From positions 1-20,620 of IMG/VR virus record IMGVR_UViG_3300027747_000793: a DNA stretch of 20,620 bases; one strand, 5' to 3'. Below, one piece after another: positions 540 to 15,188 of the stretch (its first letter is position 1; each line of letters starts with the position of its first letter). The notes below the pieces were generated by a model. It made no database searches. It was not told where the DNA came from and worked only from the letters and a program-made list of their open reading frames with translations. The DNA comes from a virus. Both the position numbers and the translations under genes were made by a program.

Positions 540-1010
540 TTACTCTTCGGCCTCGAGCTCGGGTGCGATTGGATTAACGTCCCTGCGGTACCATTTGCCT
601 GCTATATTTTCGTTATAGCTTTCCACCTCTAGTACTCGCAATGTCATTTGATAATAGGTCTCCCAATAGCTCATCTGTTTCTTCGTGGTGCAATACCTCA
701 ATACTTCTCTAGTGAACACCTCTTTGCCCAACAGTTTAATGTCCTCTGTGATTAACTTGCTCGATCCGTAATAGTCCGACCAATTGCTTTCTTTGATTTC
801 TTTTCTTTTCTTTGGGATACGACCCGGTTTTACCCACTCTGAAGTCTCCTTCTTGGTTAGTTTCTTTGTTAGTACATTTCTAAGGATTTTTTTACCGACG
901 TAGAATTTGCCGGTCTTATTGTTGGTGACTTTGTAGACGAATCCTACAACGTCTTCTGGAAAGTCTTTTAATTGAGTGAGCTCTTTCGCTTCATATAACC
1001 AATTTGACAT
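540..1010 (-). CDS. GIY-YIG-type endonuclease (Seg-like, possible homing endonuclease)
   Basis: This 156-residue protein has the start of a GIY-YIG nuclease domain. GFVYK at residues 23-27 is followed about 10 residues later by FYVGKK (36-41), a variant of the GIY...YIG pair. Next come a basic stretch (45-75), DYYGSSKLI (79-87), an arginine-containing helix (GKEVFTREVLRYC, ~95-107), a likely catalytic glutamate in YWETYYQM (E117), and YNENIAGKW (132-140) near the end. This order is typical of small phage proteins annotated as Seg-like or putative homing endonucleases, which nick or cut DNA in a metal-dependent reaction. There is no separate DNA-binding tail of NUMOD type, so the domain is minimal. 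It is the last gene of the minus-strand block, 22 nt downstream of a small structural-module gene, next to the bidirectional terminator. Mobility is inferred; a repair or genome-processing nuclease is an alternative. Confidence 0.75.
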   Translation of the reverse strand: MSNWLYEAKELTQLKDFPEDVVGFVYKVTNNKTGKFYVGKKILRNVLTKKLTKKETSEWVKPGRIPKKRKEIKESNWSDYYGSSKLITEDIKLLGKEVFTREVLRYCTTKKQMSYWETYYQMTLRVLEVESYNENIAGKWYRRDVNPIAPELEAEE

Positions 1011-1032: not shown

Positions 1033-1344
1033 TTAAATGTCCCAACGAACTACAAATGTAATATCGGTGTTGGAAGGAATAGGATACGGAGTAGATAGTT
1101 TACCCACCAATAAGAGTTGATTAGTATCGTTGTATAAACCAACCGTAGTGGCGTAGGGTCTAAAATCGGATCCAGTAACCACATCAAGGTAAGATCCTGA
1201 TGTGCCTGCTTTTCTTGCGCTTGGATTCAATGTGTAGTTGAATTCATTTTCATTCACATGACATCTTACTTCTTTTTGGTATATAGTATATTGAGAAGAC
1301 GCAGTAAAGCTAAAAGGTACTACTGTTGATGAAGGTGTAGGCAT
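1033..1344 (-). CDS. Stand-alone structural C-terminal module (paralogue of the 345-aa virion protein)
   Basis: This protein has 103 residues. From about residue 25 to the end it aligns with the last ~80 residues of the 345-residue structural protein coded at 14151-15188. EFNYTLNPS matches EYNYTANPS, TTVGLYNDTNQLLLVGKLS matches TTVGLYNTNNELLAVAKMS, and the ends VVRWDI and RVKLDW correspond. The short N-terminus (MPTPSSTVVPF...) is unrelated and may be a linker or attachment peptide. I infer a small virion or virion-assembly component, or a detached duplicate of a domain that other phages carry at the C-terminus of larger structural proteins. It sits 11 nt downstream of the HtrL/GT2 fusion gene and 22 nt upstream of the GIY-YIG gene. 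No enzymatic motif, signal peptide or membrane segment is visible. Confidence 0.75.
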   Translation of the reverse strand: MPTPSSTVVPFSFTASSQYTIYQKEVRCHVNENEFNYTLNPSARKAGTSGSYLDVVTGSDFRPYATTVGLYNDTNQLLLVGKLSTPYPIPSNTDITFVVRWDI

Positions 1345-1355
1345 GTTAATAAATA

Positions 1356-3146
1356 TTAGTTCTCTCGTCTTTCTTCTGGCGTGTAATGAGCTATACGATC
1401 ATGATCCACTGGAGAAGCAAGTAAAACTGCAGGTTTGATATTACCTTTTTTACACTCTTGAAAAACATAACTCATCCAAGTTTGTTCGTAAGGATGCGCC
1501 CATTTTACATCAAGAAACACTCTTTTATTACCCTGTTTTCCCATTACTGTAGGCCAATTGGCGTAGTAGATATCTCCTGATATGTAAGATACACCATCAA
1601 TTACGTTAATATTATTGAATTCTGTTTTTGGAGAATCTGGATCTAAACCGGTTTCAGGAAGTCTGTCGTAAAGTGGCCAAAATTCTGATCTTATTTCTTG
1701 AGGCACATTATACCAAGATACTTGAATATTATTATCCATGTACACTTCTGTATAAGACAATTTAAGATAATCGAACTGTTCTTTCTCCATAATTTTTAAT
1801 ACAGTATCATGTAAATTAGGTACGAACTTTCTAAAACCGTTTCTACAAAACTCTGTTGTATCTGGTGGGTGTATTCCCATATCGTCTTCTAAGAATAGAT
1901 AGTAATCGCTATCCGATTCATTAAAATGTTCAGCCGCTAATTGTCTACCTCCACAAATGCCGCCATTTTTACCTGTAATAATATGTTCGAAGTTATATTT
2001 TTCACACAACAATTTATTAGATTCTCTTGATTCTTCATTAGTCGAATTATCTATTAATATGTTTCTAGTTGTTTGTAACCACTTATCGTGTTTTAACCAC
2101 TTCTGTATTGTATGTTCTAATTGATGGGTGAAATTAAAAGTTAACATGTAAACAGACATTTTTAGTTTTGATATGTCTATCACTAAAGGAGAATGTCTTA
2201 TTGCTGTTTTAGGAATAGCTTCTAGTTCTACTTTATCGTCTATTAATGCTTGCGCAAATTTTACAATAAATCCATTACTGTCCAAAGCGTATCTTCTGTA
2301 CCTATCTGGATATAGATAGGACATTATCGTAAATATGCTTTCTTCTGTTCCCATTAGTCCTTGAGCCAACGATCTTTGTAATAGAATATAATACTCTGAA
2401 TTAGCTTGATTAATATATTCTTTTTTACCTCCAAATAAACCGCCTCTACAAACGTATTCAACTTTCTCACGCGAGTATCTATTCATTTCGCTATACTTAA
2501 ATCCGTGAATTTCATCGTTAGCTTCGTAAGGAAAACTTAAAAATAAAAATGATTCTAAGTAAGGCAATAATTTATCTAATGCTTTGTCTCTTGTAAAATA
2601 ATTAATGTCTACAGTATTTCCAATTCCTGCGTCTAACCAAATAAAATATTCTGTATTAAATGGATTCCATATAGTAACATCATTCAATAAAAACATTTTT
2701 GATTGAACTATTGGATTATACCATTCTAAAGCTGCCTGAGGACTACTTTTTAACCATCCGTCTTCTCCAGTTTGATTATACCAATCTGGATTAGTTCTAA
2801 CCTTTTGTGTCTCTTCCCAAAATGGTGCGTATAAATTCTTTAATTCAGTTTCTAATTCGTATACTTTTACGTAAGTATTTTTTGAAGATCTTTTTTCCCA
2901 CACTAAGTATTCATATTCTTTAGGAATATAGATAAACATATTAACGGGAATCTCTAAGAACTTTTTGAAATTCTCTATGTAATGAGAGAAGTCTCTTCCA
3001 GGTCTACCTATATTCCATAAACCTGTTACGACAGTCAAATCGTTATTAGTTACATCTATATTAGGAGATTTCAAATGTTCTAATAAATTGACTCTATCCG
3101 ATTCTCCAAGAGAATTTATGTGTTGTAGTAATTCTGATAATTCCAT
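1356..3146 (-). CDS. Two-domain glycosyltransferase: HtrL/YibB-WlaTC-like domain fused to GT2-like domain
   Basis: This protein has 596 residues. Residues ~38-325 resemble the HtrL/YibB/WlaTC glycosyltransferase family: TVVTGLWNIGR near the start, NMFIYIPKE (69-77), and an acidic FIWLDAGIGN motif (168-177) in the place of the sugar-nucleotide/metal site. RGGLFGGKK and a tyrosine-rich helical region follow. Residues ~330-596 form a second GT-A fold of GT2 type: SVYMLTFNFTHQLEHTIQKWL, then ILIDNSTN (363-370), GGICGGRQLAAEHF, and the acidic LFLEDDM motif (417-423), with DGVSYISGDIYY and a late histidine pair (DHDRIAH) near the end. The protein probably adds two sugars, or adds one and elongates. 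The start follows the carbamoyltransferase stop by 1 nt (TAATATG), so translation is probably coupled. The fusion is unusual; acceptor and donor cannot be read from the sequence. Confidence 0.8.
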   Translation of the reverse strand: MELSELLQHINSLGESDRVNLLEHLKSPNIDVTNNDLTVVTGLWNIGRPGRDFSHYIENFKKFLEIPVNMFIYIPKEYEYLVWEKRSSKNTYVKVYELETELKNLYAPFWEETQKVRTNPDWYNQTGEDGWLKSSPQAALEWYNPIVQSKMFLLNDVTIWNPFNTEYFIWLDAGIGNTVDINYFTRDKALDKLLPYLESFLFLSFPYEANDEIHGFKYSEMNRYSREKVEYVCRGGLFGGKKEYINQANSEYYILLQRSLAQGLMGTEESIFTIMSYLYPDRYRRYALDSNGFIVKFAQALIDDKVELEAIPKTAIRHSPLVIDISKLKMSVYMLTFNFTHQLEHTIQKWLKHDKWLQTTRNILIDNSTNEESRESNKLLCEKYNFEHIITGKNGGICGGRQLAAEHFNESDSDYYLFLEDDMGIHPPDTTEFCRNGFRKFVPNLHDTVLKIMEKEQFDYLKLSYTEVYMDNNIQVSWYNVPQEIRSEFWPLYDRLPETGLDPDSPKTEFNNINVIDGVSYISGDIYYANWPTVMGKQGNKRVFLDVKWAHPYEQTWMSYVFQECKKGNIKPAVLLASPVDHDRIAHYTPEERREN

Positions 3147-3147
3147 A

Positions 3148-4827
3148 TTATTTTTTTATAAAGAGGTCTTTTCTTATGTAATAATCTTCCAATAGCAAAC
3201 AGTCTAATTGAGTCTCATTGTATATTTTAAATGCATCAGCGTATGTAGATAGGATAGGTCTTCCATTAACATTAAACGATGTGTTCAATAATACTCCAAT
3301 TCCTGTTGCGGATTCAAATTCTGTTAACAAATCATACAACCATTCGTTCTGTTCTCTAGTCACTGTTTGAACTCTCGCAGTTCCATCTACGTGAGTTATG
3401 GCTGCTAATTTATCTCTCCACTCTTCTCTTACTTTAGGACAAAAACTCATCCATCTTGATTCGCCATTGAATTCAAAATATTTAGATACATCTTCTTGTC
3501 TAACTACTGGAGCAAACGGTCTGTACCATTCTCTATGTTTTACTTTTTCATTTAGTACATCTTTCATATCAGCTATAGATGGATTGCATAAAATGCTTCT
3601 ATGTCCCAATGCTCTAGGTCCGTGTTCGGCTTGACCTTTTACAACTCCAACTATTTTACCATTTACTAAATCGTCTACCAATATACTAGGATCCCATTGT
3701 TCATGAGGATGGAACTCTTGATTTTTCGTCATTAATTTTTTTACATTTGCGTAATGGCAAATATATTGAGCCAATAGATGACGATCTAATATAGGCAATC
3801 CTTTGTATGTAATATCAACAGCATTTTCTGGTTTTGAATGTTTGAGCATTAATCCTAAAGCAATACCACAATCATTTGGGTTGGGTCCTACGAATACTTC
3901 TTTTCCAAATTCTTGTTTAATTCGTGTATTCAATAATATGTTTAGACCACAACCGCCGGTAATACAAACAGGCACATCAGGATATTGTTCAAAATAAGGT
4001 TTAGCAATTTCAATGAAACAGTCTTCGAAAGCTCTTTGTGCAGTAGCCGCAACATCGTACGCAACTTGACCTTCTAATCTATTGTTTATGTCAAACTCTA
4101 CTCCTATTTTCTCTCCAAGTATTTTGATCTTTTTATCGTAGTCGTCATTAGTACCATCAGGATTAGATTTAAAAAAGTCCATAAAATCGCTTAACCAATC
4201 AGGATTCCATTGACCGTAAGATACTAATCCCATAATTTTTCCAGGGTACGTTAGGTTACCATCACTTATCCATTCAAAAGTAATGTCTTTTAGATAGTGT
4301 CCAAATGACATATAAGGAAAACCTAAATCGTAATAAACATGTTTCAATTCTTCATTAGGATTCATTACTTGAGTTAATCTAGTTATCTCTTGACCACGAA
4401 TTGCACGATACACATTAAACTTACCATCATCACCGCCTCCGTCAAAAGAAAATATTAAAGCCTCTTTATAATCTGATTGGTAGAATACTCCATTTGCATG
4501 AGATTCGTGGTGAGATCCGTGAATATAATTTTTGACTTTAAACATTGCATTTGTTTGGAAAGCTCTGTGTACTCCTTCAAAATTTTCTCCTATAAAATCA
4601 GTCGACGAATAATAACAGTTTTCATATTCTGTAATACCATACTCTTTTTCTATCCACTTTATCAATTGCTCTACTACCATCATAATATAAGCCGGCGTTT
4701 TATACTGCGCTATGCCTACATTTTTATAGTTTAAAAATCTTTCTATTTCTATTACGCACAAAATTTCTCCATTTTGTTCTAATACGATAGCGCCATTGTG
4801 AGATCCGTGAAAACTTATGTTAGTCAT
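3148..4827 (-). CDS. O-carbamoyltransferase, NodU/CmcH/TobZ family
   Basis: At 559 residues this is full length for the family, which moves a carbamoyl group from carbamoyl phosphate via carbamoyl-AMP to a hydroxyl of a sugar or natural product. The N-terminal Kae1-like part has SFHGSHNGA (5-13), an ER motif (29-30), the metal-binding histidines HHESH (106-110), FDGGGDDG (128-135) and GGCGLNILLN (291-300). The YrdC-like C-terminal part has KGQAEHGPRALGHRSIL (397-413), VKHREWYRPFAP (429-440), RVQTV (485-489) and NTSFNVNGRPI (515-525). All key motifs are present, so it is probably active. It overlaps the upstream glycosyltransferase gene by 8 nt and precedes another by 1 nt, so a sugar hydroxyl on a glycan made by its neighbours is the likely acceptor. 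Modified DNA bases or host glycans are alternatives. Confidence 0.93.
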   Translation of the reverse strand: MTNISFHGSHNGAIVLEQNGEILCVIEIERFLNYKNVGIAQYKTPAYIMMVVEQLIKWIEKEYGITEYENCYYSSTDFIGENFEGVHRAFQTNAMFKVKNYIHGSHHESHANGVFYQSDYKEALIFSFDGGGDDGKFNVYRAIRGQEITRLTQVMNPNEELKHVYYDLGFPYMSFGHYLKDITFEWISDGNLTYPGKIMGLVSYGQWNPDWLSDFMDFFKSNPDGTNDDYDKKIKILGEKIGVEFDINNRLEGQVAYDVAATAQRAFEDCFIEIAKPYFEQYPDVPVCITGGCGLNILLNTRIKQEFGKEVFVGPNPNDCGIALGLMLKHSKPENAVDITYKGLPILDRHLLAQYICHYANVKKLMTKNQEFHPHEQWDPSILVDDLVNGKIVGVVKGQAEHGPRALGHRSILCNPSIADMKDVLNEKVKHREWYRPFAPVVRQEDVSKYFEFNGESRWMSFCPKVREEWRDKLAAITHVDGTARVQTVTREQNEWLYDLLTEFESATGIGVLLNTSFNVNGRPILSTYADAFKIYNETQLDCLLLEDYYIRKDLFIKK

Positions 4828-5692
4828 TATTAGTTATATTATTTATTTTTAAAAATTCATCATAATCAGTATGCTCTTTAATTGTACCATCTCCACCGTA
4901 TCTCCAATATCTTTCGTGTATTGGATTGTGTTGTACATTAAATATTCTAGATCCATGGTAATCTTTTTTATTTAGGTTTAGTACATTATATATTGGAGCT
5001 AAAATGTATTCGTCGTTTATACCATAATGACCCCTACATCTATTCATTTCATTTATTTCGTATAGGTATTCTACAGCGCCGTGCCACATATCAAATAGCT
5101 TCTGTAAAGATTCATTAGAATCCGCAAAATACATTCTTGCAGCTGCATCTAATATTCTAATTTTATCATCTACTACTAAGTCATATTTTGATTTTAACCA
5201 ATCTACAATTAATTCACTTTTATGTGTTATAGCAGGTTCAGTCCATTCTGAAACAGCGTTGTAAAAATTATTGGATCCATAACATTCGTCATCTAAGAAA
5301 TTAAAATCCAATACAGTATCTGTGTTTAATAGGGCTACATTTTTTATGCCTAGCTTTAATGCTTGTAATACTGAAAATCTATAACTACTAAAAGGGAATA
5401 GATAACCTAGAGTGTTAAATTTAATTGCATAATCTTCTTTACTAACGCTTTCTAAAAAAGGTTCATTTTTTTCTATGTTTGGAAATTCCGCATAGAAATC
5501 TTTTAGTTCGTTAACTACTAAATTCTTTCTTTCCAATCCATCAAAATAAGATTTATCGTCTGTTAGCACACAGAAGTATAAGTTATCATCATCAAAATAA
5601 TAATCTTTTATTTGTTTGTAAGCGCTTTCTCTATATGTGGGTCCGCATGGAACATAACATATCGCTATTTTTTCTTTTACTATTGAGCTCAT
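4820..5692 (-). CDS. Probable GT-A-type glycosyltransferase
   Basis: This protein has 290 residues. It starts with a beta strand typical of Rossmann-like nucleotide-sugar folds (KIAICYVPCG, 8-17), then CVLTDD (41-46). A helix (YRFSVLQALKLGIKNVALL) leads into NTDTVLDF (123-130), which occupies the DxD metal/nucleotide-sugar position. The C-terminus has GHYGINDEYILAPIYN and a histidine-containing ERYWRYGGDG segment, as expected for the acceptor side of a GT-A enzyme. The layout parallels the protein coded at 6627-7655 and the two are probably distant paralogues. No membrane segment is visible. The start lies immediately after the upstream stop (TAATATG), and the end overlaps the carbamoyltransferase start by 8 nt. 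I cannot name the CAZy family. Context and the DxD-like site support glycosyl transfer, but this is moderate evidence. Confidence 0.65.
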   Translation of the reverse strand: MSSIVKEKIAICYVPCGPTYRESAYKQIKDYYFDDDNLYFCVLTDDKSYFDGLERKNLVVNELKDFYAEFPNIEKNEPFLESVSKEDYAIKFNTLGYLFPFSSYRFSVLQALKLGIKNVALLNTDTVLDFNFLDDECYGSNNFYNAVSEWTEPAITHKSELIVDWLKSKYDLVVDDKIRILDAAARMYFADSNESLQKLFDMWHGAVEYLYEINEMNRCRGHYGINDEYILAPIYNVLNLNKKDYHGSRIFNVQHNPIHERYWRYGGDGTIKEHTDYDEFLKINNITNND

Positions 5693-5693
5693 A

Positions 5694-6608
5694 TTATAAT
5701 TCTAATTTTTCTATTACGTGTTTTAATCTATTGAAAGGATTACAATACTCTGTATAATAATCTCTACCATTTTTTGCAACAAATTGTAAGAAGTCTTTAT
5801 TGTCTTTAACCTCGTTGTATCTCTGTCTATACGCTTCAACATATTCAGGACCTCCTTCCCTATCCGCGTACATATCCCAAGGAAACTTAGATCTATCTAC
5901 AGCCACGTAATGATAATTAGGTATTAGTGGAGGATCTAATTGAGTCATATATTCTATTCTTAGCATAGGAACTCCAATTGACAAGTATTCTATTTCTCTA
6001 AAATTAACTTCTGCTACTCCTGGAAGTGCTAAACCCATTCTATATTTAACCGCCATCATTAAATAGTCATGTATGGTCATAGGTCCCTCCCTTTCTGTAA
6101 TTAATCCTTCTGCTCTTAATTGTTCGCCAATTGGTCTACCCGTAGAAAACAAACAGAATAGTTTATCTATTGTAGTCTCGTTTAAATACTCGTACAATTT
6201 TCTTTGGTGATAATAATACTCGTGATTTACATTTGGATTAAAAGTATAGTAAGTGGTATTTTTTATTTTAAAATTCCATACACTTCTATCAAATGTTTTA
6301 GGGTATATATTATAAAATTGAGTGACTAATAGAATGTCTTTAGGATTATTTCTTTTTTCAAAAATGTCGAATACTCCTGTTCTAGATTCTCCCCAGAATA
6401 TGCATTTCAATGAATCCTCTTCTTCATCATGAATTAGTAATTCACAGTCTTTTAAGTTGTAATCAAATTTATCCATCCTTAAATAGCCGCCTTTTTGATG
6501 AACTAATTTAGCGTCGTATTTGTCTTTTATGTATATTAATGCTTCTAAAAGCACTTCGTGCCATCCCCAATAAGGATACTGATTTTCTAAAAAGTAAATT
6601 GTTTTCAT
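5694..6608 (-). CDS. Probable GT-B-type glycosyltransferase (GT90/exostosin-like C-terminal signature)
   Basis: This protein has 304 residues. The N-terminus (MKTIYFLENQYPYWGWHEVLLEAL) looks like the first strand and helix of a GT-B domain. The best signature is at residues ~189-237: YRMGLALPGVAEVNFREIEY, then LSIGVPMLRIEY, then PLIPNYHYVAVD. This order of glycine-proline turn, R-E-I-E-Y, G-V-P and hydrophobic strand with HYV resembles the nucleotide-sugar-binding half of GT90/CAP10-like and exostosin-like enzymes. The protein is short for a complete GT-B enzyme, so the acceptor domain is reduced. It sits between two GT-A-like genes, 18 nt after the upstream one and 1 nt before the next. Donor and acceptor are unknown. 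Family assignment is tentative, but a glycosyltransferase role is likely. Confidence 0.6.
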   Translation of the reverse strand: MKTIYFLENQYPYWGWHEVLLEALIYIKDKYDAKLVHQKGGYLRMDKFDYNLKDCELLIHDEEEDSLKCIFWGESRTGVFDIFEKRNNPKDILLVTQFYNIYPKTFDRSVWNFKIKNTTYYTFNPNVNHEYYYHQRKLYEYLNETTIDKLFCLFSTGRPIGEQLRAEGLITEREGPMTIHDYLMMAVKYRMGLALPGVAEVNFREIEYLSIGVPMLRIEYMTQLDPPLIPNYHYVAVDRSKFPWDMYADREGGPEYVEAYRQRYNEVKDNKDFLQFVAKNGRDYYTEYCNPFNRLKHVIEKLEL

Positions 6609-6626
6609 ATAAGTTAAATTTTAAAT

Positions 6627-7655
6627 TTATTCGTTATTAATTTCTTTGAATCCATATATTAAATTATTAGCATTTTGTAAACCGCTATAGTGATCTATTA
6701 ATTCTTTTTTATTTACTCTCAAAAAATCCTCCCTTGTTTTTGTTTCTTTAAATAATGGATTAGACCTGTATTTTAATGATACACCAAAAAAATCATTTTC
6801 TGGTATGTACAAATGAGTGATTATATTTTTATATCCGCATACAAAAGCGTTAAAATATCTGGTATATATAGATGAAATTATAAGCACCATAAATTCAAAA
6901 TCAATGATCCAATGAGAAGATGAAAAAACTTTTTTATTATTTTCATAGTAAAATTGAGTAAGATCTTCCCAAAAATTAAATAGAGTTTCTAAAGAAGCCA
7001 ATTCCTTAAACCAAAAACCAAAAGTATGACCATCGAATCCTGTATCAGTTAAATTGTCTAAACGAAGTTCTGCGCTATCTAAAATATATTTTGGGTAATT
7101 ATCTTCATTTATAAAAGGAAAATATTTTTTTACTATACTATTGTATTCCCCTAATATTAGTGGTTTAGACAATTCGTTATTCGAGGTATAGTAAACAGAT
7201 CCAAAAATTAAATCTTTCTCTTTTGCAAAATTATTGAGTTCAATTAATCCGAATTCAGATTTAAAATGATAGTTAATTTTAGCTCCTCCATCTACTAACA
7301 CCAATCTGGTTATTTTGTTTTTAATAGCCCATTTAAGTCCATATCTCATTATTCCCATAGGATATTTATAACCAGATTCATACATTGAAGACAATTTTTC
7401 CATGTATTCTAGTTCGTCTTCTATATCTAATACATATTCGTGTTTTCTACTCCAATCAGGTCTTAAAGATTCGAGATCTTGAACTATTAGATTGAATTTA
7501 GTTTTTACATTTTCTAGAATTTTTGGCGTATTTGTTATAATAACAACATTGGCTTCTTCTGGAATAAAATCAAAACTTTTTATTACTGTTTTTATATAAT
7601 TTCTACCGGTTAATACATAAATAAAATAAAAATCTTTAAATAAAGAATTATTCAT
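6627..7655 (-). CDS. Glycosyltransferase-like protein with altered metal site (DGG)
   Basis: This protein has 342 residues. The N-terminal FIYVLTGRNY and NVVIITNTPK are Rossmann-type strands. The segment IMRYGLKWAIKNKITRLVLV leads into VDGG (121-124) at the place where its apparent paralogue at 4820-5692 has NTDT. If the alignment is right, the second aspartate of a DxD motif is replaced by glycine. Activity may therefore be lost, metal-independent or carried by other acidic residues. The C-terminal half is rich in aromatic residues (SSSHWIIDFEFM, IYTRYFNAFVCGYKN) and has no clear membrane helix. It starts 2 nt after the stop of the tandem GT60-like gene. The short lines I counted here are the most AT-rich of the window (about 23% G+C at 6841-6900). 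The role is inferred mainly from context; it may be an accessory or acceptor-binding partner. Confidence 0.5.
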   Translation of the reverse strand: MNNSLFKDFYFIYVLTGRNYIKTVIKSFDFIPEEANVVIITNTPKILENVKTKFNLIVQDLESLRPDWSRKHEYVLDIEDELEYMEKLSSMYESGYKYPMGIMRYGLKWAIKNKITRLVLVDGGAKINYHFKSEFGLIELNNFAKEKDLIFGSVYYTSNNELSKPLILGEYNSIVKKYFPFINEDNYPKYILDSAELRLDNLTDTGFDGHTFGFWFKELASLETLFNFWEDLTQFYYENNKKVFSSSHWIIDFEFMVLIISSIYTRYFNAFVCGYKNIITHLYIPENDFFGVSLKYRSNPLFKETKTREDFLRVNKKELIDHYSGLQNANNLIYGFKEINNE

Positions 7656-7657
7656 GA

Positions 7658-8935
7658 TTAATCTATTTTAATTTGTACTCTTTCGCACCAATTTCTTGTA
7701 TTACTATAGCCCCATAAAACTAAACGAGAAGGTTTTTTGTGCGTTAAAAACATTTCTTCAAAATCGAAATATCCATTTGATGAACTATAGAATGTGCTCT
7801 GTAAAAACTCTTTAGTTAAGCTCCTAACGTGAATGGGGAGTCCGTTCTCATCGTCAAATGCCATGTGAATAAATTCATAATCGTTGTTTGGAAAGTCGTT
7901 TCTATAGAGCTTAACTAAGTGATAGAAAGATTCTGTAAAGCTCTGTTCCCATATCTCATCGTTTTCTATGTATGGATTCGGTGGATATTGATTGTCTAAA
8001 GTGTATTGTTGAACTGCTTTTCTTTTGAAGTGAAAACCTGCGTATTTTTCAAAATCTCTTAACGTTCTAACTGTGCCTAAATCGTAACCTGTTAAATCTA
8101 TGCTAGGATCTTCTTCTGTTTTTAATAGCACTCTAATCTTTTTTCTAGCATATTCTTGCTTTTGGAACCAATCTACGCCTAATTTAGAATCGTCGTCCCA
8201 TTTCAACATTCCCGCTCTTTCTTCTCTCATCGTAGAATGCCAAACTACCAATTTGTGAGGATGAAATAAATCGTATCCGTGAGTGTATGATCTAACAGTT
8301 AAGTTTAATTCCTCTCCGCTAAAATAGATATCTGGATCGTGTTTAATTTCTCTAGCCCATTCTGATCTAGCAAAACAAAAGTGTCCTGATAAGAATCTAC
8401 TCATTGGGGGTTCTGTCATCGTTTCCCAACCGTGTAATAAACCAGGTCTAATAAAGATTGTACCATGAGGATAGAACGATGCAAAAGTTTGTTGCCAAGG
8501 TTCCATAGTTCTACCAGTTGGATCGTTGTAAGGTGTGTACAGCGGTAAGTAAGCTCCTAATACTGGTTTGTATCCCTTAGCTTCCAAACCATTGTGCATT
8601 TCAATTAAGGTTTCGTCCCAATCTTGTGCGAATCTATGATGAGAATCTAATTGTAAAATATAATCTTCATCAGTTAATAAGTTTTCATTTATTTGAGCTC
8701 TTGCCCATGGAAGACCTTTAGCCTCTTTATACTCGAAATTTAATACTTTAACTCTTTTATCTTTTTTGAATTCATCAAGATTATCAAATTCATCAGTTTC
8801 ACAGTACTGCCTACATATACCAAAGCGAAGTCTACTTGGATACTTAGCTCTAGCTATTGCATCTTTAATAGTGGGCACCAATTCTGGATCTCTATAAGCA
8901 GGTAAGTGCAATAGTATGGTTTCTTTTTTATTCAT
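7658..8935 (-). CDS. GT60-like (GlcNAc family) glycosyltransferase, copy 2
   Basis: This protein has 425 residues and belongs with the Pfam GlcNAc family (PF11397; CAZy GT60). Eukaryotic members add GlcNAc to hydroxyproline or threonine of proteins. Visible motifs are LPAYRDPEL (11-19), EAKGLPWARAQI (71-82), QLDSHHRF (95-102; DSH as the metal/nucleotide-sugar motif), then LSGHFCF, FSGEELNLTVRSYTHGYDLF and PHKLVVWH. The N-terminal ~300 residues are co-linear with the upstream gene. A shared C-terminal extension (AFDDENGLPI...TRNWCERVQIKID) with beta character follows and is not part of the core fold. The gene overlaps the upstream copy by 8 nt (ATGAATAA), so it is a tandem duplicate under coupled translation. 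All core motifs are intact, so it is probably active. The donor (UDP-GlcNAc or another UDP-sugar) is inferred. Confidence 0.85.
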   Translation of the reverse strand: MNKKETILLHLPAYRDPELVPTIKDAIARAKYPSRLRFGICRQYCETDEFDNLDEFKKDKRVKVLNFEYKEAKGLPWARAQINENLLTDEDYILQLDSHHRFAQDWDETLIEMHNGLEAKGYKPVLGAYLPLYTPYNDPTGRTMEPWQQTFASFYPHGTIFIRPGLLHGWETMTEPPMSRFLSGHFCFARSEWAREIKHDPDIYFSGEELNLTVRSYTHGYDLFHPHKLVVWHSTMREERAGMLKWDDDSKLGVDWFQKQEYARKKIRVLLKTEEDPSIDLTGYDLGTVRTLRDFEKYAGFHFKRKAVQQYTLDNQYPPNPYIENDEIWEQSFTESFYHLVKLYRNDFPNNDYEFIHMAFDDENGLPIHVRSLTKEFLQSTFYSSSNGYFDFEEMFLTHKKPSRLVLWGYSNTRNWCERVQIKID

Positions 8936-10187
8936 ATTTTATAGTTTCTTCTATTCTTTCCATCCAACCTTTTGATTTGGAATGTGGCCAAACTCTCCAC
9001 GAATAAGGTTTTCTTATATCGGGATAAGATCTCCAGATATGCACAAATTGCTCTTCTTTGTTCTGATTTAATAACGAATATATTTCATTTTCATCAGCGT
9101 CCTGTCTGTAAAGATCATTTCCATTTTCGTCCAAGAAAGCTATTGCAAAGCTGTCATAATCATTTTCCGGAAGGCTTCCTTTGTAGATATCGAGGCAATG
9201 TTTAAATGTGCTAGTTAAACCTGATTCGTAATCTCCTACAAGTGGAGGAAATTTATTATCAGTCGTCTCCTTATGTATTTGTCGTGTTGAGAATTTTAAT
9301 CCCGCGTATATTTCAAAATCTTGAATTGATCTTGTAGTACCTGTATAATTAGGACCTAACGCTGCTTTTCTTTGACAACTTGTGCAACCAGGATCCATGC
9401 CGAATATTTTTCTAATTCTTGCGTAAGAAGCATCGTCTCTCATTTTCCAATCTTGACTGTCGTCCCAATGTCTTTTCTTACCATTTCTATCGTACTCGTG
9501 CCAAACTACAACTTTATGAGGAGCATACAAATCGTAACCAAAAGTATATGCTCGTAAAGCTAGCGAGCTCTCTTCTCCATGAAAATATAAATTAGGATCG
9601 TAAGGAACCTCAGTAACAAATTGACCAATAGTAAATAAAAAATGACCTGATACAAATCTTGTTTTGAAAGGTTCTTTTAAATTAGTCCAATTTTCTACAT
9701 AGTAAGGACGTAGAAACATAGCGCCAGCTGGCATGAATCTATCTATATTTAATCCCCATACTTCGTGAACTCTATTTTTTGGATCTATTTCTGGAAAATA
9801 ACCCGGCATATAAGCCGATAATAAAGGCTTACTTGATCCTTTACATCTCAAGTAATTTAACCAATCTTTTAGTGTTGTGTCCCAACTTTTAGCGAATCTG
9901 TGATGAGAATCTATTTGAAAGTAGTAATCCTCTCCATTGTAATGTTTTTGAATTTCGCTTCTCATCCAACATACACCTTTAGCGTCCTTATAGTCTATGT
10001 CAATTATGTTGAATCTCTTATCTTTGGAATATTTCTTTAGAGTGTCCCATTTGTCTTCTTTAGAGTGCTGCCAGCCTATACAAATAACCAAATTTTCAGG
10101 TCTATCTGCATTCTCTAACATATTTTTTAACGTGGGTAATAATTCCGGATCTCGGTACGCGGCTATCGAAACAAATATCTTATCCAT
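8928..10187 (-). CDS. GT60-like (GlcNAc family) glycosyltransferase, copy 1
   Basis: This protein has 419 residues and the same architecture as its downstream copy. IFVSIAAYRDPEL (4-16) is the family's opening motif, followed by DAKGVCWMRSEI (68-79) and QIDSHHRF (91-98) with the DSH site. VSGHFLF (~179-185), YFHGEESSLALRAYTFGYDL (201-220) and PHKVVVWHEYDR follow. The C-terminal ~90 residues (AFLDENGNDLY..., ending SKGWMERIEETIKYE) match the extension of copy 2. It is the first gene of the carbohydrate block, 87 nt after the gene for the Ser/Thr/Pro-rich 1290-residue protein. Known GT60 enzymes act on polypeptides: Dictyostelium Skp1 hydroxyproline, and Thr in trypanosome mucins. The neighbour's TPS linkers are therefore attractive substrates, which is inference. 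There is no signal peptide or membrane anchor, so it probably acts in the infected cell's cytoplasm. Confidence 0.87.
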   Translation of the reverse strand: MDKIFVSIAAYRDPELLPTLKNMLENADRPENLVICIGWQHSKEDKWDTLKKYSKDKRFNIIDIDYKDAKGVCWMRSEIQKHYNGEDYYFQIDSHHRFAKSWDTTLKDWLNYLRCKGSSKPLLSAYMPGYFPEIDPKNRVHEVWGLNIDRFMPAGAMFLRPYYVENWTNLKEPFKTRFVSGHFLFTIGQFVTEVPYDPNLYFHGEESSLALRAYTFGYDLYAPHKVVVWHEYDRNGKKRHWDDSQDWKMRDDASYARIRKIFGMDPGCTSCQRKAALGPNYTGTTRSIQDFEIYAGLKFSTRQIHKETTDNKFPPLVGDYESGLTSTFKHCLDIYKGSLPENDYDSFAIAFLDENGNDLYRQDADENEIYSLLNQNKEEQFVHIWRSYPDIRKPYSWRVWPHSKSKGWMERIEETIKYE

Positions 10188-10274
10188 AATAACTTAATTT
10201 AAAACTTTTATTTCATATTTTTAAATTTATCTTTTAAGTATTAACTATTTTTTATTTAATATCCAAAAATTTTA
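10188..10274 (-). promoter_or_regulatory. AT-rich intergenic spacer before the carbohydrate block
   Basis: This 87-nt gap is the longest one inside the minus-strand block. It is almost entirely A and T, with several A/T runs. It separates the 1290-residue structural gene from the glycosyltransferase genes, so it is the most likely place for an internal promoter, an mRNA-processing site or a weak terminator. I saw no good hairpin with a T tract, no consensus sigma-70 pair, no T4-type late box TATAAATA on the minus strand, and no complete Bacteroidetes TAnnTTTG box. The regulatory role is inferred only from position and composition. Confidence 0.3.
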
Positions 10275-13200
10275 TTAACATGAATTACATCCTACTGAAA
10301 TATAAGTTACAGCAGCTCCAATATTGGCACCTGTTCTAACTTGTCTCCAGTTACCGTTCGTATTATCTACAATTGATACTGTAGCATTTGCACCATAAGT
10401 TGTAAAGAGACTACCTACCGAGCCGTTAGCTGCAAAAGTTGCTCCAGAACCTGCAGAGCAGAAATTACCTGGAATTGCTACTGACCATACACTTCCAAAT
10501 GTAGTACAGTTTCCAGACGGTGTTCCTGTACCTACTCTATTTGTTACTACTACAGAACTAGGAGTCACAGTAACACTAGGCGTTATAGATATGGTTGGAG
10601 TAACTGAAGGTACAGTAGAACAATCTGTCACTGCTGTAATTTGACCTGTTGCTCCAATTTGTACTGCCCACAGTGTAGCACCCTTTCTCATATTGTGATA
10701 ATTAGATCCACCATTATAAGCAGTGGTTAAGCTAGAGTTTGTATAAACAAATTGACTAACTGTTGGCGTTGTAGTTCCTGGCGCCATCCAAGCTGATCCT
10801 ATAGGATTTTGCGATCCATTAGCGCAAGAATCGAAAGCGGTACTGTATCCGGTTGTATCTAGTGCAAATGAAACTGCTGCTTGAGATACACTTATAGAAT
10901 TTGGTGGAGTAAGACTCACACTCACCGATGGAGTTTGTGTAATACTAACACTTGGAGTAATACTTATCGATGGAGTAGGAGTAAAGCTTGGAGTAACTGT
11001 TGGAGTAACTGAAGGCGTTATTGATACGGAAGGTACAGTAGAACAATCTGTTACTGCTTGAATAACTCCACCTGTACTTACATAAACGGCCCAATAAGTA
11101 GAAGCTCTACCTATTTTAAAGAAACTTGGAGAACCAATTCCCGGGTTCCATGCGGTTGTAAGAGAAGTGTTCGTGTACAGCTGAGCTCCACCTGCGGGAT
11201 CGGTTCCAGCGGCTGGAGATTGATATAACACTTGTCCTATCAATGTATTGTTTTGAGAACAAGCCGTAAATGAATTAGGGTAAGCAGTAGGAGCCGACCC
11301 AAATGATCCTTCAGTAGATGTAGCAAATTGAATAGCTGGAGGAGTTACGGATATAGAAGGAGTCATGGATACAGATGGAGTTCTAGATATGCTAGGAGTA
11401 ATACTAATACTTGGAGTGTTACTAGGCGTAGTACTAATACTTGCAGTGTTACTAGGCGTAGCAGTAATACTTGGAGTGACACTAGGCGTAGCAGTAATAC
11501 TTGGAGTGACACTAACAGATGGTATAGTAGAGCAATCTGTTACTGCTTGAATAACTCCACCTGTACTTACATAAACGGCCCAATAAGTAGAAGCTCTACC
11601 TATCTTGAAGAAACTTGGAGAACCAATTCCTGGATTCCATGCTAGCGATAAACCGGTATCGGTATACAATTGAGCTCCACCTGCAGGAGTAATTCCAGCT
11701 GCTGGAGACTGATACAACACTTGTCCTATCAATGTATTGTTTTGAGAACAAGCTGTGAATGAATCCGCGTAAGCGGTAGGTGCAGAGCCATATGATCCCT
11801 GAGTTGATGTGCCAAACTGTATTGCTGGTTGAGTTACAGATATAGAAGGAGTAGGAGATTTAGAAGGCGTAGCAGTAATACTAGGTGTAATACTAATACT
11901 AGGTGTAATACTTGGTGTAGTCGTAATACTTGGAGTGACACTAACAGATGGTATTGTGGAACAATCTGTTACCGCTTGAATAACGCCGCCTGTACTTACA
12001 TAAACTGCCCAATAAGTAGAAGCTCTACCTATTTTAAAGAAACTTGGAGAACCGATTCCTGGATTCCACGCTGTTGATAAAGAATTATTTGTATACAATT
12101 GAGCTCCAACAGCAGGATCGGTTCCAGCGGCTGGAGATTGATATAACACTTGTCCTATCAATGTATTGTTCTGAGAGCAAGCTGTGAATGAATCTGCGTA
12201 AGGTGTGGGAGCCGACCCAAATGATCCCTGAGTTGATGTGCCAAACTGTATTGCTGGTTGAGTTACAGATATAGAAGGAGTAGGAGATTTAGAAGGCGTA
12301 GCAGTAATACTAGGTGTAATACTAATACTTGGAGTGACACTAGGCGTAGTAGTAATACTTGGAGTGACACTAACAGATGGTATAGTAGAGCAATCTGTTA
12401 CTGCTTGAATAACACCGCCTATACTTACTAATACCGCCCAATAAGTAGAAGCTCTACCTATTTTGAAGAAACTTGGAGAACCAATTCCTGGATTCCATGC
12501 TGTTGTAAGAGATGTGTTCGTGTACAGTTGAGCTCCATTAGCAGGAATATTTCCAGCGGCTGGAGACTGATATAATACTTGTCCTATTAAAGTATCGCTT
12601 TGAGAGCAAGCTGTGAACGAATCCGCATAAGGCGTGGGAGCTGCTCCAAATGAGCCTTGAGTGGATGTACCAAACTGTACTGCTGGAGGAGTTACGGATA
12701 TAGAAGGAGTCATGGATACGGATGGAGTTCTACTAGGAGTCACACTAATTGATGGAGTAATGCTAATTGATGGAGTAATACTAATACTAGGAGTTACACT
12801 AGGAGTCACACTAATAGATGGAGTTATGCTAATACTAGGAGTTTGACTAGGCGTTATGCTAATAGATGGAGTAATACTAATACTAGGAGTAATACTAATT
12901 GAAGGCGTTATAGATATGCTTGTACTAATACTAGGCGTAATACTAATTGATGGAGTTCTAGATACACTTGGACTAACTGTAACAGACGGAGATGCTGAAA
13001 CTCCTGGTATGTTAATTGTGGTATAAACTGTATCGCAAACTCCTGCTATATCATACAAATACATGTAATTTGCTCCTGTTGTAACTCTTACATCAAATCC
13101 TGAAACAATTTGTGAAGACGTTAATGTACCTATGTTATTTCCATTGCTATCCAAAGCCGGAATCAAAGAGCCAACACTACCAGTTTCATCGTAGTATGCC

Positions 13201-14147
13201 ATAAATTTATCAGCGCTTACTCCTGTAGCGGTAGCTTTTATAGTTACGTATTGATAAGGCTGTTGGACTAAAATACTAGTTGCGCTTAAACCTCTTATTT
13301 TACAATCAGTAATTTTAACTTCTAATTTGGCAGGATCCGAAGGAGTAGAATATGTAGACTTTACAGTAAAGAACGAATTATATGTTCCTACTTGATTCGT
13401 TTTAGGATCTGTTTCTCTAAGTGTAATATTTGCATTAGCGGTGTTAATACTTACGCTAGGAAAAGGTTGACCAAAATAACTGGATAGCGCTAAAGACGCA
13501 TTATCTATAGGAGCACAATCTCCTGTAGCGTCAGAAAGCGGATTAAATGTTTTAGGATTTTGAGTTATATCAAAAGTGTAATATTTGTCAGAAACGTTTG
13601 GTCCACCGTCCATTACGCAATAATAATTTTGATTGGTTATTATTACCGTAGCTTGAGGATACAGGATATTACCCACATGTATGTAGCTATTAAAAGCATC
13701 AACTACGTTTCCGTTACCGTCGTCTATTAATTTATAACTGGTTCCATCGGCTGAGGCCAATTGAAAACTTTTTCTAGCAATATTCTCACCAGCAACAGTT
13801 CTTGGAATAGAAATTATTTTAATTTTTTCGTTTGATCCTGTAGGGAAAATTCTAATGTCTTCATCTCCACTTCCAGAGGCTGCTGTAGATTGCAAATAAT
13901 TTATATCTGCAGAACCTGTTGAACTTGAAGATCCTGTAAGGAAATTAGAATAATAAAGGTGTCTTACAGACCAATAACGCAACGTTGATGGAGTTGCGGC
14001 TCCGGCTGGACTTACTGCTCCGTTTATACCTTTTTTAGCCGAGATACCAGAGTTATTAACGGTTGTGTTGTCGTAAGAACTCGAATATTTAACTTTTATT
14101 GGTTTAGCAGCTCCGTTAGAATCTAAAATATTCTTTGCGTTGCTCAT
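10275..14147 (-). CDS. Large mucin-like virion adhesin/tail protein with five two-cysteine repeats and Ser/Thr/Pro linkers
   Basis: This protein has 1290 residues. Residues 1-~378 form a unique region (LRYWSVRHLYYSNFLTGS, SGSGDEDIRIFP) that resembles N-termini of structural proteins in uncultured marine phages and probably attaches to the virion. A linker of TPSISI-type hexapeptides (~379-486) follows. Next are four closely similar ~100-residue units and a divergent fifth (~487-589, 630-732, 773-876, 936-1039, 1089-1180). Each has two cysteines (TACSQ and TDCST in units 1-4; SCANG and TDCST in unit 5), a YTN/YTD-x-SL segment and YWAV (LWAV in unit 5), suggesting a small beta domain with a possible disulphide. 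Linkers between units are again TPS-rich. A distinct C-terminal domain (~1199-1290) ends in CNSC. The start follows the upstream stop at TAATAAATG. A fibre or surface-exposed host- or mucus-binding role is inferred. The linkers are candidates for O-glycosylation by the enzymes coded next door. Confidence 0.8.
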   Translation of the reverse strand: MSNAKNILDSNGAAKPIKVKYSSSYDNTTVNNSGISAKKGINGAVSPAGAATPSTLRYWSVRHLYYSNFLTGSSSSTGSADINYLQSTAASGSGDEDIRIFPTGSNEKIKIISIPRTVAGENIARKSFQLASADGTSYKLIDDGNGNVVDAFNSYIHVGNILYPQATVIITNQNYYCVMDGGPNVSDKYYTFDITQNPKTFNPLSDATGDCAPIDNASLALSSYFGQPFPSVSINTANANITLRETDPKTNQVGTYNSFFTVKSTYSTPSDPAKLEVKITDCKIRGLSATSILVQQPYQYVTIKATATGVSADKFMAYYDETGSVGSLIPALDSNGNNIGTLTSSQIVSGFDVRVTTGANYMYLYDIAGVCDTVYTTINIPGVSASPSVTVSPSVSRTPSISITPSISTSISITPSISITPSISITPSISITPSQTPSISITPSISVTPSVTPSISITPSISITPSISVTPSRTPSVSMTPSISVTPPAVQFGTSTQGSFGAAPTPYADSFTACSQSDTLIGQVLYQSPAAGNIPANGAQLYTNTSLTTAWNPGIGSPSFFKIGRASTYWAVLVSIGGVIQAVTDCSTIPSVSVTPSITTTPSVTPSISITPSITATPSKSPTPSISVTQPAIQFGTSTQGSFGSAPTPYADSFTACSQNNTLIGQVLYQSPAAGTDPAVGAQLYTNNSLSTAWNPGIGSPSFFKIGRASTYWAVYVSTGGVIQAVTDCSTIPSVSVTPSITTTPSITPSISITPSITATPSKSPTPSISVTQPAIQFGTSTQGSYGSAPTAYADSFTACSQNNTLIGQVLYQSPAAGITPAGGAQLYTDTGLSLAWNPGIGSPSFFKIGRASTYWAVYVSTGGVIQAVTDCSTIPSVSVTPSITATPSVTPSITATPSNTASISTTPSNTPSISITPSISRTPSVSMTPSISVTPPAIQFATSTEGSFGSAPTAYPNSFTACSQNNTLIGQVLYQSPAAGTDPAGGAQLYTNTSLTTAWNPGIGSPSFFKIGRASTYWAVYVSTGGVIQAVTDCSTVPSVSITPSVTPTVTPSFTPTPSISITPSVSITQTPSVSVSLTPPNSISVSQAAVSFALDTTGYSTAFDSCANGSQNPIGSAWMAPGTTTPTVSQFVYTNSSLTTAYNGGSNYHNMRKGATLWAVQIGATGQITAVTDCSTVPSVTPTISITPSVTVTPSSVVVTNRVGTGTPSGNCTTFGSVWSVAIPGNFCSAGSGATFAANGSVGSLFTTYGANATVSIVDNTNGNWRQVRTGANIGAAVTYISVGCNSC
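11792..11900 (-). repeat. 109-bp perfect direct repeat, copy A
   Basis: This stretch is identical, by direct reading, to 12221-12329, offset by 429 bp (a multiple of three, so in frame). It covers the start of repeat unit 3 and the first half of the linker before it. Perfect identity at DNA level, including silent positions, points to a recent duplication or gene conversion between units 2 and 3. Confidence 0.9.
12221..12329 (-). repeat. 109-bp perfect direct repeat, copy B
   Basis: This is the partner of 11792-11900. It covers the start of repeat unit 2 and the linker before it. Recombination between the two copies would delete or add exactly one in-frame unit of 143 residues. Confidence 0.9.
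12690..13013 (-). repeat. Low-complexity Ser/Thr/Pro linker of 18-bp coding repeats
   Basis: This DNA is built from degenerate ~18-bp units such as ggagtaatactaattgat on the plus strand, which code for TPSISI/TPSVSV-like hexapeptides on the minus strand. The longest Ser/Thr/Pro run of the 1290-residue protein (~residues 379-486) lies here. Nearly every third residue is Ser and almost every sixth is Pro. Alternating bulky (I/V) and hydroxyl residues suggest an extended beta-like rod rather than a globular fold. Confidence 0.88.
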
Positions 14148-14150
14148 TTA

Positions 14151-15188
14151 TTACCAATCTAATTTAACTCTAATTAATGCTTCTTTTGTGAAATCTTTAA
14201 CAAGTGGCTTAGACATTTTTGCTACTGCCAAAAGTTCGTTATTGGTGTTATATAAACCAACAGTTGTCATGTAGGTCTGAGGACTGTTAACAAAGTTAGG
14301 ATATATTAAGCTACCTGAAACGTCTATCATTGATGGATTTGCAGTATAATTGTATTCTGCGTTCTTAATTCTTACAAACACATAATCTGACGATATTGTC
14401 TCTTCAGAGTTCAATGTGAAAGAACTGCCCGAGTTAATTGTTTGATAAATTAAATCGTGATTCACCCAACCATTTGCTGCTGTAGTAGAAGTAATAAAAG
14501 GAATGGCCAAACCACCATTAGCTGTAGTCGCGCTTAAAGCTCTAGGATTCAATACAATTAAACCGATATCTGGTAAGAAAAGACCGTAAGATCCTGATTC
14601 TGTGTAGCCTCTTGCAGGAGCTCCTGATAATAGAGGACTATTAACTGCTGTACCGTTAGAACCAGAAATGATATCGTAAGCTCTACCACAATCTAAGTAA
14701 TTTACAGTAGATATGTCGTTGTAATTATTTGTTAAGAATAAAGTTTGAGCGTAAGTTCCAAATTTCAAACTTAAGTTAAAAGTGCCTGGAAATAAATTTC
14801 CTTTATATCTGTTTCTATCTATAGGAATTGCAATTAAATTTAAAGAAGAGGTATTACCTGTTCCAAAATTTACGTTAGCGGTAGCATCTCCATAAATTAG
14901 GTTTCTATATTGACCAAAAGTAATTCTACTTGGAGTATTTTGAAGCACTAAAGAGTTTAATGGTGCTGAACCAGAACCGTATATATGACCGTAAGCAACT
15001 GAGAATTGTACGGCTGCATTAGAGGCGTTATAAGTAGTATTATATACGTCCAAATAATAACTACTCGTTAGGTTAGATGAAGCAGTGTAGAAAGCAGTCA
15101 GAGTCTGAGCGTTAGTACTCCATGCTGGAGCTGTTACAGAATCTGAAGATACTACAAAATCTGATGAAGCAAGTGATGTAAAAGACAT
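14151..15188 (-). CDS. Phage structural protein with conserved C-terminal module
   Basis: This protein has 345 residues and is rich in Ser, Thr, Asn and Tyr, as expected for a virion protein. The N-terminal part (SDFVVSSDSVTAPAWSTNAQ...) and the middle (SRITFGQYRNLIYGD, GLFLPDIGLIVLNPRALSA) look like beta-rich structural sequence. The last ~80 residues form the module also found alone at 1033-1344: EYNYTANPS, TYMTTVGLYNTNNELLAVAK, then EALIRVKLDW. I recognise this C-terminal pattern from uncultured phage structural proteins, but no precise virion location is established from the sequence. It starts 10 nt after the 219-residue gene. The next gene starts 3 nt beyond its stop, so the three are probably co-translated. 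A tail, baseplate or neck component is likely. Confidence 0.75.
   Translation of the reverse strand: MSFTSLASSDFVVSSDSVTAPAWSTNAQTLTAFYTASSNLTSSYYLDVYNTTYNASNAAVQFSVAYGHIYGSGSAPLNSLVLQNTPSRITFGQYRNLIYGDATANVNFGTGNTSSLNLIAIPIDRNRYKGNLFPGTFNLSLKFGTYAQTLFLTNNYNDISTVNYLDCGRAYDIISGSNGTAVNSPLLSGAPARGYTESGSYGLFLPDIGLIVLNPRALSATTANGGLAIPFITSTTAANGWVNHDLIYQTINSGSSFTLNSEETISSDYVFVRIKNAEYNYTANPSMIDVSGSLIYPNFVNSPQTYMTTVGLYNTNNELLAVAKMSKPLVKDFTKEALIRVKLDW

Follow-up and report, generated by a model that had tools for sequence, protein, structure and literature searches.

Does a bacterial virus that carries a long mucin-like protein within its tail-fibre locus also carry, next to it, the enzymes that attach sugars to that protein? 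The question was raised by a 20,620-nucleotide window (IMG/VR virus record IMGVR_UViG_3300027747_000793, positions 1 to 20,620). The initial annotation described in it a 1290-residue structural protein rich in Ser, Thr and Pro, followed directly on the same strand by two GT60-like enzymes, four further glycosyltransferase or glycosyltransferase-like genes (one a two-domain fusion) and a carbamoyltransferase. It proposed that the GT60 enzymes start an O-glycan on the TPS linkers, that the other enzymes extend it, and that the carbamoyltransferase caps it. We first verified the genes, then asked whether related phages repeat the pairing, and finally compared this explanation with its alternatives.

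Gene content of the locus

The observation was confirmed. All the open reading frames were found at the expected positions, on the minus strand and tightly packed. From the border of the locus through the block to the baseplate region, the features are as follows:

540..1010, minus strand: GIY-YIG (SegE-like) gene that closes the locus in most relatives, used as border marker
1033..1344, minus strand: g1033, C-terminal half of the ancestral fibre protein, here a separate small gene beyond the glycan block
1356..3146, minus strand: HtrL_YibB and GT2-like fusion, constant last gene of the block
3148..4827, minus strand: NodU/TobZ-type O-carbamoyltransferase, proposed sugar-modifying step, optional in relatives
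4820..5692, minus strand: g4820, predicted GT-A fold, closest solved structures GT6 (ABO / alpha-1,3-GalT type)
5694..6608, minus strand: g5694, conserved block gene of unproven type
6627..7655, minus strand: g6627, possible GT-A enzyme distantly related to g4820, in the variable middle of the block
7658..8935, minus strand: GT60b, second PF11397 enzyme, overlapping GT60a by 8 bp
8928..10187, minus strand: GT60a, PF11397 polypeptide alpha-GlcNAc-transferase-like, proposed initiating enzyme
10275..14147, minus strand: TPS-linker fibre/baseplate protein, 1290 aa, proposed glycosylation substrate
10869..11069, minus strand: S/T/P linker 5 (residues 1027-1093)
11304..11549, minus strand: S/T/P linker 4 (residues 867-948)
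11793..11984, minus strand: S/T/P linker 3 (residues 722-785)
12222..12413, minus strand: S/T/P linker 2 (residues 579-642)
12651..13031, minus strand: S/T/P linker 1 (residues 373-499)
13611..14147, minus strand: N-terminal domain (residues 1-179) of the TPS protein, the conserved half shared with short fibre proteins of relatives
14151..15188, minus strand: g14151, fibre/baseplate-region protein bearing the same C-terminal domain as g1033
15199..15858, minus strand: g15199, conserved baseplate-region protein used for the survey described below

The TPS protein contains 207 Ser, 181 Thr and 109 Pro, with 46 TPS motifs. Its five linkers (404 aa in total) are separated by copies of a ~140-aa domain, and the DNA shows tandem repeats of 429-489 bp. 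This composition is not due to chance, since none of 934 ORFs from nine related contigs or phages without GT60 has a 100-aa STP stretch. A tblastn search with the TPS protein in cultured phages returned nothing. However, its N-terminal domain (HMM match 1e-79) is 43% identical to residues 1-190 of an intact 297-aa protein from a relative's locus (L102), and g1033, which was missing from the initial annotation, is 70% identical to residues 210-296 of that same protein. The linkers and the block separate the two halves of a ~300-aa protein that relatives encode whole. By synteny with Flavobacterium phage immuto, in which gp107 is 70% identical to g15199, the TPS gene is placed after baseplate genes. 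The virion location of the TPS protein rests only on domain homology and synteny.

We next examined the enzymes. GT60a and GT60b matched PF11397 at 3.6e-65 and 2.4e-53 (221 and 182 bits against a cut-off of 21), GT60a also matched phrog_24687 at 4e-143, and the two are 37% identical to each other. Both paralogues keep all alignment-invariant residues, including the DxH metal-binding type motif (D93/H95, GEE 204-206 and H230 are invariant in 16 sequences). The carbamoyltransferase has both expected domains above cut-off (PF16861, 8.6e-66; PF02543, 6.4e-21; phrog_1601, 5.6e-124; NodU, 4.2e-46). The fusion gene matched HtrL_YibB (PF09612, 3.5e-14) and, weakly, GT2 (PF00535, 0.0047), and the border gene matched PF19835 at 2.4e-28. 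For g4820 no sequence family was found, but a medium-quality AlphaFold model (pLDDT 67.7) matched GT6 structures in Foldseek (E 2e-4, prob 1.0), albeit with a low TM of 0.36. g6627 also had no family hit and could be aligned with g4820 only distantly (about 20% identity), with a degenerate DxD. In the case of g5694, homologues were found only within related blocks, there was no family hit, and the structure model was unusable (pLDDT 37), so that the label "glycosyltransferase-like" given to it by the initial annotation is unproven. Searches of PDB sequences with GT60 (single sequence and profile) and with the g4820 profile found no relative, and a scan of genome contigs for GT60 gave eight distant bacterial or MAG sequences.

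Co-occurrence of glycosyltransferases and STP proteins

In all 15 evaluable close relatives, an STP protein lies directly before GT60a, with at most one tiny ORF between them. To examine co-occurrence without selecting for either feature, a check that the initial annotation had itself suggested, we fetched relatives by means of g15199. Glycosyltransferases were present in the fibre locus of 10 of 14 loci with STP proteins and of 2 of 24 loci without (Fisher, p=1e-4). One locus counted as lacking a glycosyltransferase (L111) carries GT60 further along its contig, whereas three loci (L135, L151 and L163) have STP proteins and no glycosyltransferase nearby. As the loci are related, the p-values given here overstate their independence. 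The middle genes of the block are glycan genes in relatives, namely GDP-mannose dehydratase, GT10, GT2, GT34, DegT and RmlD-like genes.

In a second lineage the same GT60 block is not linked to any fibre gene, yet three of the five contigs scanned (G021, G023 and G024) carry TPS-type proteins elsewhere. The GT60 contigs G022 (66 kb) and G027 (42 kb) have the block and no long STP protein, but they are fragments. Overall, a 100-aa STP stretch was found in 6 of 9 GT60-positive and 0 of 9 GT60-negative contigs and phages (p=0.009). For GT60 loci outside the window's group, a looser criterion (GT60 within five genes of an STP gene) gave 25 of 61 against 15.2 expected, which is only a moderate excess.

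The type of linker tracked the enzyme set. GT60 alone goes with TPS-type linkers, GT60 plus prolyl-4-hydroxylase (P4H) with Pro-rich linkers, and poly-Thr linkers with other glycosyltransferases. Pro content was 27% with P4H and 17% without (p=2e-4), and P4H loci had an STP protein just upstream in 34 of 35 cases, although this survey sits mostly in one phage group with shared gene order. No P4H was found among the Pfam hits of the window or in three near-complete relatives (G001, G002 and G005), and relatives of up to 180 kb have no PF13640 gene. We therefore set aside the idea that the window uses hydroxyproline, and the Skp1-like route is not evident in this lineage, although P4H does accompany GT60 in other phage groups.

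Interpretation and alternative explanations

The interpretation in the initial annotation is partly supported. Its central claim, that the block serves the STP-rich fibre protein, passed the check that it had itself suggested: co-occurrence holds in the survey and, in part, in the contigs in which the block has moved away from the fibre locus. Initiation on the TPS linkers by the two GT60 enzymes, the order of extension and the carbamoyl cap remain inference, the carbamoyltransferase being absent in about half of the close relatives.

With good though not complete confidence, we consider that the window holds the host-recognition (tail-fibre/baseplate) locus of a tailed phage, whose nearest cultured relatives are Flavobacterium phages of the immuto group, and that the genes following the fibre protein make glycans and attach them to it. 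In this view, the two GT60 enzymes would most likely add GlcNAc (or a related sugar) to Thr/Ser of the linkers in the cytoplasm during infection, the variable middle genes and the YibB-GT2 fusion would extend or diversify the chain, and the carbamoyltransferase, where present, would modify a sugar. The glycosylated linkers, lying between folded repeat domains, would act as stiff, protease-resistant spacers and as a variable outer coat. What our analysis shows is the genes, their families, their conserved arrangement and their co-occurrence with STP proteins, both linked and unlinked; there is no direct evidence of any glycan, and the transferase activity of the GT60 enzymes, the substrate and its glycosylation, the attachment residue, the order of steps and the function of the coat are inferred. 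Characterised GT60 enzymes modify polypeptides (PMC6939170, PMC8724618).

Two alternatives appear unlikely, to a similar degree. The STP linkers could be bare flexible spacers while the block glycosylates another virion protein (capsid or tail tube), as in mycobacteriophages (PMC12363180). The STP proteins without a glycosyltransferase nearby and the GT60 contigs without a visible STP protein speak for this, but the statistical pairing of glycosyltransferases with STP proteins, and of P4H with Pro-rich linkers, argues against it. Alternatively, the block could alter the host's surface polysaccharide (receptor masking or superinfection exclusion), its place beside the fibre gene reflecting co-selection for host recognition. 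HtrL_YibB is a family named after E. coli YibB, and relatives carry nucleotide-sugar genes of kinds also found in O-antigen pathways. However, known GT60s act on polypeptides, none of the block proteins scanned hit a flippase, GtrA/B or polymerase family, and this explanation predicts neither the co-occurrence with STP proteins nor the link of linker type to P4H. Hypermodification of phage DNA (glycosylated or carbamoylated bases) is very unlikely: some phage glycosyltransferases act on DNA (PMC5852040) and the fusion gene had a weak hit to an HMC-glucosyltransferase family (0.094), but we found no TET/JBP match in four relatives (in a search without a positive control) and no intact thymidylate-synthase-type gene in G001 or G002, and the block lies in the fibre locus.

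A more far-reaching possibility, which we put forward only tentatively, is that tailed phages carry two routes of polypeptide O-glycosylation matched to linker composition: GT60 alone on Thr/Ser of TPS-type linkers, and P4H plus GT60 (with HPAT-like and O-FucT-like domains in some) on hydroxyproline of Pro-rich linkers. This would be hydroxyproline-linked glycosylation, known from protists and plants, carried out by viruses of bacteria on their own fibres. Searches of the open literature, which do not cover subscription papers, found no prior description of GT60 in phages or of P4H with phage glycosylation. If the proposed fibre glycosylation is true, phages make mucin-like, sugar-coated fibres with enzymes of the family that starts Skp1 and trypanosome mucin glycosylation. 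This would give many STP-rich phage proteins a function, offer soluble enzymes for O-GlcNAc-type and hydroxyproline glycosylation, show a swappable glycan cassette inside a receptor-binding locus, and bear on where eukaryotic GT60/P4H systems came from.

Comparison with known glycosylation systems

Among the GT60 polypeptide alpha-GlcNAc-transferases, Skp1 Gnt1 and the Trypanosoma cruzi mucin-initiating enzyme belong to the same PF11397 family. The Skp1 enzyme is a soluble cytoplasmic polypeptide glycosyltransferase, the T. cruzi targets are Ser/Thr-rich, and a P4H partner is present in some phage relatives. The enzymes studied here differ in being phage-encoded, duplicated and next to a fibre gene, without P4H in this lineage.

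Glycosylation of phage virions is already known. In the mycobacteriophages Che8, Corndog and Myrna (Freeman 2023, cited in PMC12363180), phage-encoded glycosyltransferases modify virion proteins, as proposed here, but the targets there are capsid and tail-tube proteins, whereas here the proposed target is a mucin-like fibre protein with a multi-gene glycan block. Chlorella virus PBCV-1 likewise encodes its own glycan machinery (as cited in PMC5852040), although it is a eukaryotic virus and the glycosylated protein is the major capsid protein.

Finally, the cultured Xanthomonas jumbo phage XacN1 has the same GT60-CTase-YibB/GT2 block (ORF334, 333, 330), and glycoproteins were detected in its proteomic analysis, for which the authors suggested the phage-encoded glycosyltransferases ORF328 and ORF334 (PMC5852040); the text that we consulted neither identifies these glycoproteins nor proposes a substrate. 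Virion mass-spectrometry data for XacN1 are deposited (PXD008065), which makes the proposal testable. In contrast to the window, XacN1 has one GT60, its block lies on the strand opposite to the linker protein ORF325, and its short PTP linkers are found in a 3313-aa protein.

Organization of the locus and its place in the fibre region

The window, a 20,620-base virus record, is organized on the - strand, with the genes running from the baseplate region to a GIY-YIG gene in the following order:
15887-19996 (-), baseplate-region gene
15199-15858 (-), g15199, baseplate-region gene
14151-15188 (-), baseplate-region gene
10275-14147 (-), 1290-aa TPS protein
8928-10187 (-), GT60a
7658-8935 (-), GT60b
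g6627 (-), distant relative of g4820
g5694 (-), no family assigned
g4820 (-), predicted resemblance to GT6 structures
3148-4827 (-), carbamoyltransferase
1356-3146 (-), HtrL_YibB-GT2 fusion
g1033 (-), small gene beyond the glycan block
540-1010 (-), GIY-YIG (SegE-like) gene

GT60a/GT60b and g4820/carbamoyltransferase overlap by 8 bp, and a terminator-like hairpin lies at 481-508, after the last gene. The TPS protein contains 207 Ser, 181 Thr and 109 Pro, its five linkers total 404 aa, and the protein has 46 TPS motifs. PF11397 is matched by the two GT60 proteins at 3.6e-65 and 2.4e-53, and both paralogues keep every residue that is invariant across 16 family members, including D93-x-H95. The carbamoyltransferase is of the NodU type, whereas g4820 resembles GT6 structures only through a model of modest quality, and g5694 stays unassigned. 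The GIY-YIG gene belongs to phrog_447, which is labelled NAD synthetase; the Pfam match suggests that this label is wrong, and gp100 of Flavobacterium phage immuto, found at the same place, carries that annotation.

Synteny with phage immuto places the TPS protein where that phage has genes annotated as tail fibre and tail spike, between the baseplate genes and the GIY-YIG gene. Relatives without a cassette encode one protein of ~297 aa whose N-terminal part matches TPS residues 1-173 (43%) and whose C-terminal part matches g1033 (70%). In the window the two halves stand at the two ends, with the linkers and the whole glycan block between them. Other relatives fill the same gap with a fibre-like protein of 1000-1350 aa without Ser/Thr/Pro (STP) linkers, so this looks like a cargo site for host-facing proteins.

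Co-occurrence of glycosyltransferase genes with STP proteins

To test whether the glycan block is linked to the STP protein as its putative substrate, we used three different starting points. Starting from GT60a, all 15 close relatives with enough sequence, several of which are near-duplicates, have an STP protein immediately before GT60a. Starting from g15199, which is neutral to both features, we obtained 38 nonredundant resolved loci, in which any glycosyltransferase (GT) was found in the locus in 10 of 14 with STP linkers and in 2 of 24 without (p=1e-4); for GT60 alone, the figures were 6 of 14 and 2 of 24 (p=0.03). As the loci share ancestry, these p-values are guides only. The two STP-negative cases carry P4H (prolyl-4-hydroxylase), GT60 and carbamoyltransferase, and one of them (locus L152) has Pro-rich proteins a few genes upstream. 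Locus L111 (11764-20387), counted as GT-negative, has GT60 further along its contig, beyond the GIY-YIG gene and next to very large STP proteins. This 180-kb phage contig (G005, which also includes L203:4135-14935) carries several such proteins, with 1022, 878, 795 and 794 linker residues among them.

Finally, starting from the carbamoyltransferase, we found a second phage lineage whose GT60-GT60-carbamoyltransferase-YibB/GT2 block lies beside a gene of ~862 aa and away from the fibre locus used here. Of five contigs scanned, three carry TPS-type proteins elsewhere (G021, 520 and 275 aa of linker; G023, 855 aa; G024, 975 and 712 aa), whereas two shorter ones do not. In the scanned contigs or phages without GT60, no 100-aa STP stretch was found among 934 ORFs. 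Linkage alone cannot explain this. A second STP-rich protein (412 linker residues) was also seen far from the fibre locus in a near-complete relative (L377:12782-14731, corresponding to 32782-34731 of contig G001). As for the carbamoyltransferase, it also occurs in phage contigs without GT60 or STP proteins nearby (L295-L305 and L310), although the contig of L304 does have GT60 further away, so this enzyme has other uses. Distant GT60 genes were found in bacterial genomes and MAGs (L187-L194; SAR86, Insolitispirillum, Azonexus).

Linker composition and the make-up of the block

Linker type tracks the enzyme set. GT60 without P4H goes with TPS/TPT/TQT linkers (median Pro 17%, Ser 20%), whereas GT60 with P4H goes with Pro-rich linkers such as PTPTPT, APTPSPT or PPPIIAT (median Pro 27%, Ser 6%; p=2e-4 for Pro, 34 nonredundant loci). 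Exceptions are L041 and L043, which have several P4H genes and Pro of only 14-16%; arrays of several different P4H-like oxygenase genes in single phage contigs were observed in L041 (11593-18875), L043 (10915-20903) and contig G010. Poly-Thr linkers go with other GTs, including a GT6-like gene. In this regard, poly-Thr mucin-like proteins (TTTTTTEAPTTTTTT) in L105, L119-L122, L138, L139 and L149 have a separate conserved GT-A-like gene of ~318-331 aa directly downstream and no GT60, representing a parallel system.

A survey led by P4H found an STP protein within five genes upstream in 34 of 35 nonredundant loci and GT60 nearby in 16, although these loci come mostly from one phage group. In L155 and L019, the P4H gene is followed by a fusion with an HPAT (hydroxyproline arabinosyltransferase) match, which is below the cut-off in L155 and above it in L019, an O-FucT domain and GT60. 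This mirrors the Skp1 order of P4H then GT60 (PMC6939170). In a different phage group (L054-L074, e.g. L066:5925-11684), a Pro-rich tail-region protein is followed by P4H, a radical SAM/SPASM enzyme, GT60 and an NDP-sugar epimerase, suggesting a possible further peptide-modifying enzyme between P4H and GT60. The window lineage lacks P4H, so attachment to Thr/Ser, as for the T. cruzi mucin-type enzyme, fits better here.

In all relatives L001-L018 that span the block, GT60a-GT60b open it and the YibB-GT2 fusion closes it, while the middle varies. Middle genes in relatives include GDP-mannose 4,6-dehydratase, GT10 fucosyltransferase, GT2, GT34, an FkbM-like methyltransferase, DegT aminotransferase and an RmlD-like reductase, and the carbamoyltransferase is present in about half. 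A constant start and end with a variable middle suggests that the inferred glycan differs between close relatives.

Interpretation and comparison with known systems

We consider, with fairly good confidence, that a phage-encoded O-glycosylation cassette for a mucin-like fibre protein is the best explanation for these data. The attachment residue, the sugar, the order of steps, the capping and the role of the coat are, however, inferred rather than shown, as are the enzymatic activities and the glycosylation itself.

ALTERNATIVES. Host-surface modification and another virion target are not excluded, but do not predict the pairing with STP proteins. DNA modification is unlikely, since we found no TET/JBP match in four relatives, in a search that lacked a positive control, and no intact thymidylate-synthase-type gene in the relatives G001 and G002.

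Among cultured phages, Xanthomonas phage XacN1 and Stenotrophomonas phage RAS14 have GT60, carbamoyltransferase, one or two further genes and YibB/GT2, several kb from a protein of 3138-3313 aa with short PTP linkers, which in XacN1 lies beside a baseplate wedge gene. The XacN1 authors report at least two glycoproteins by proteomic analysis and suggest the phage-encoded glycosyltransferases ORF328 and ORF334 (PMC5852040), without proposing a substrate in the text consulted; ORF334 is this GT60. Glycosylation of virion proteins by phages is already known, and what would differ in the system proposed here is the use of GT60 enzymes, whose characterised members, in the literature we read, are from protists.
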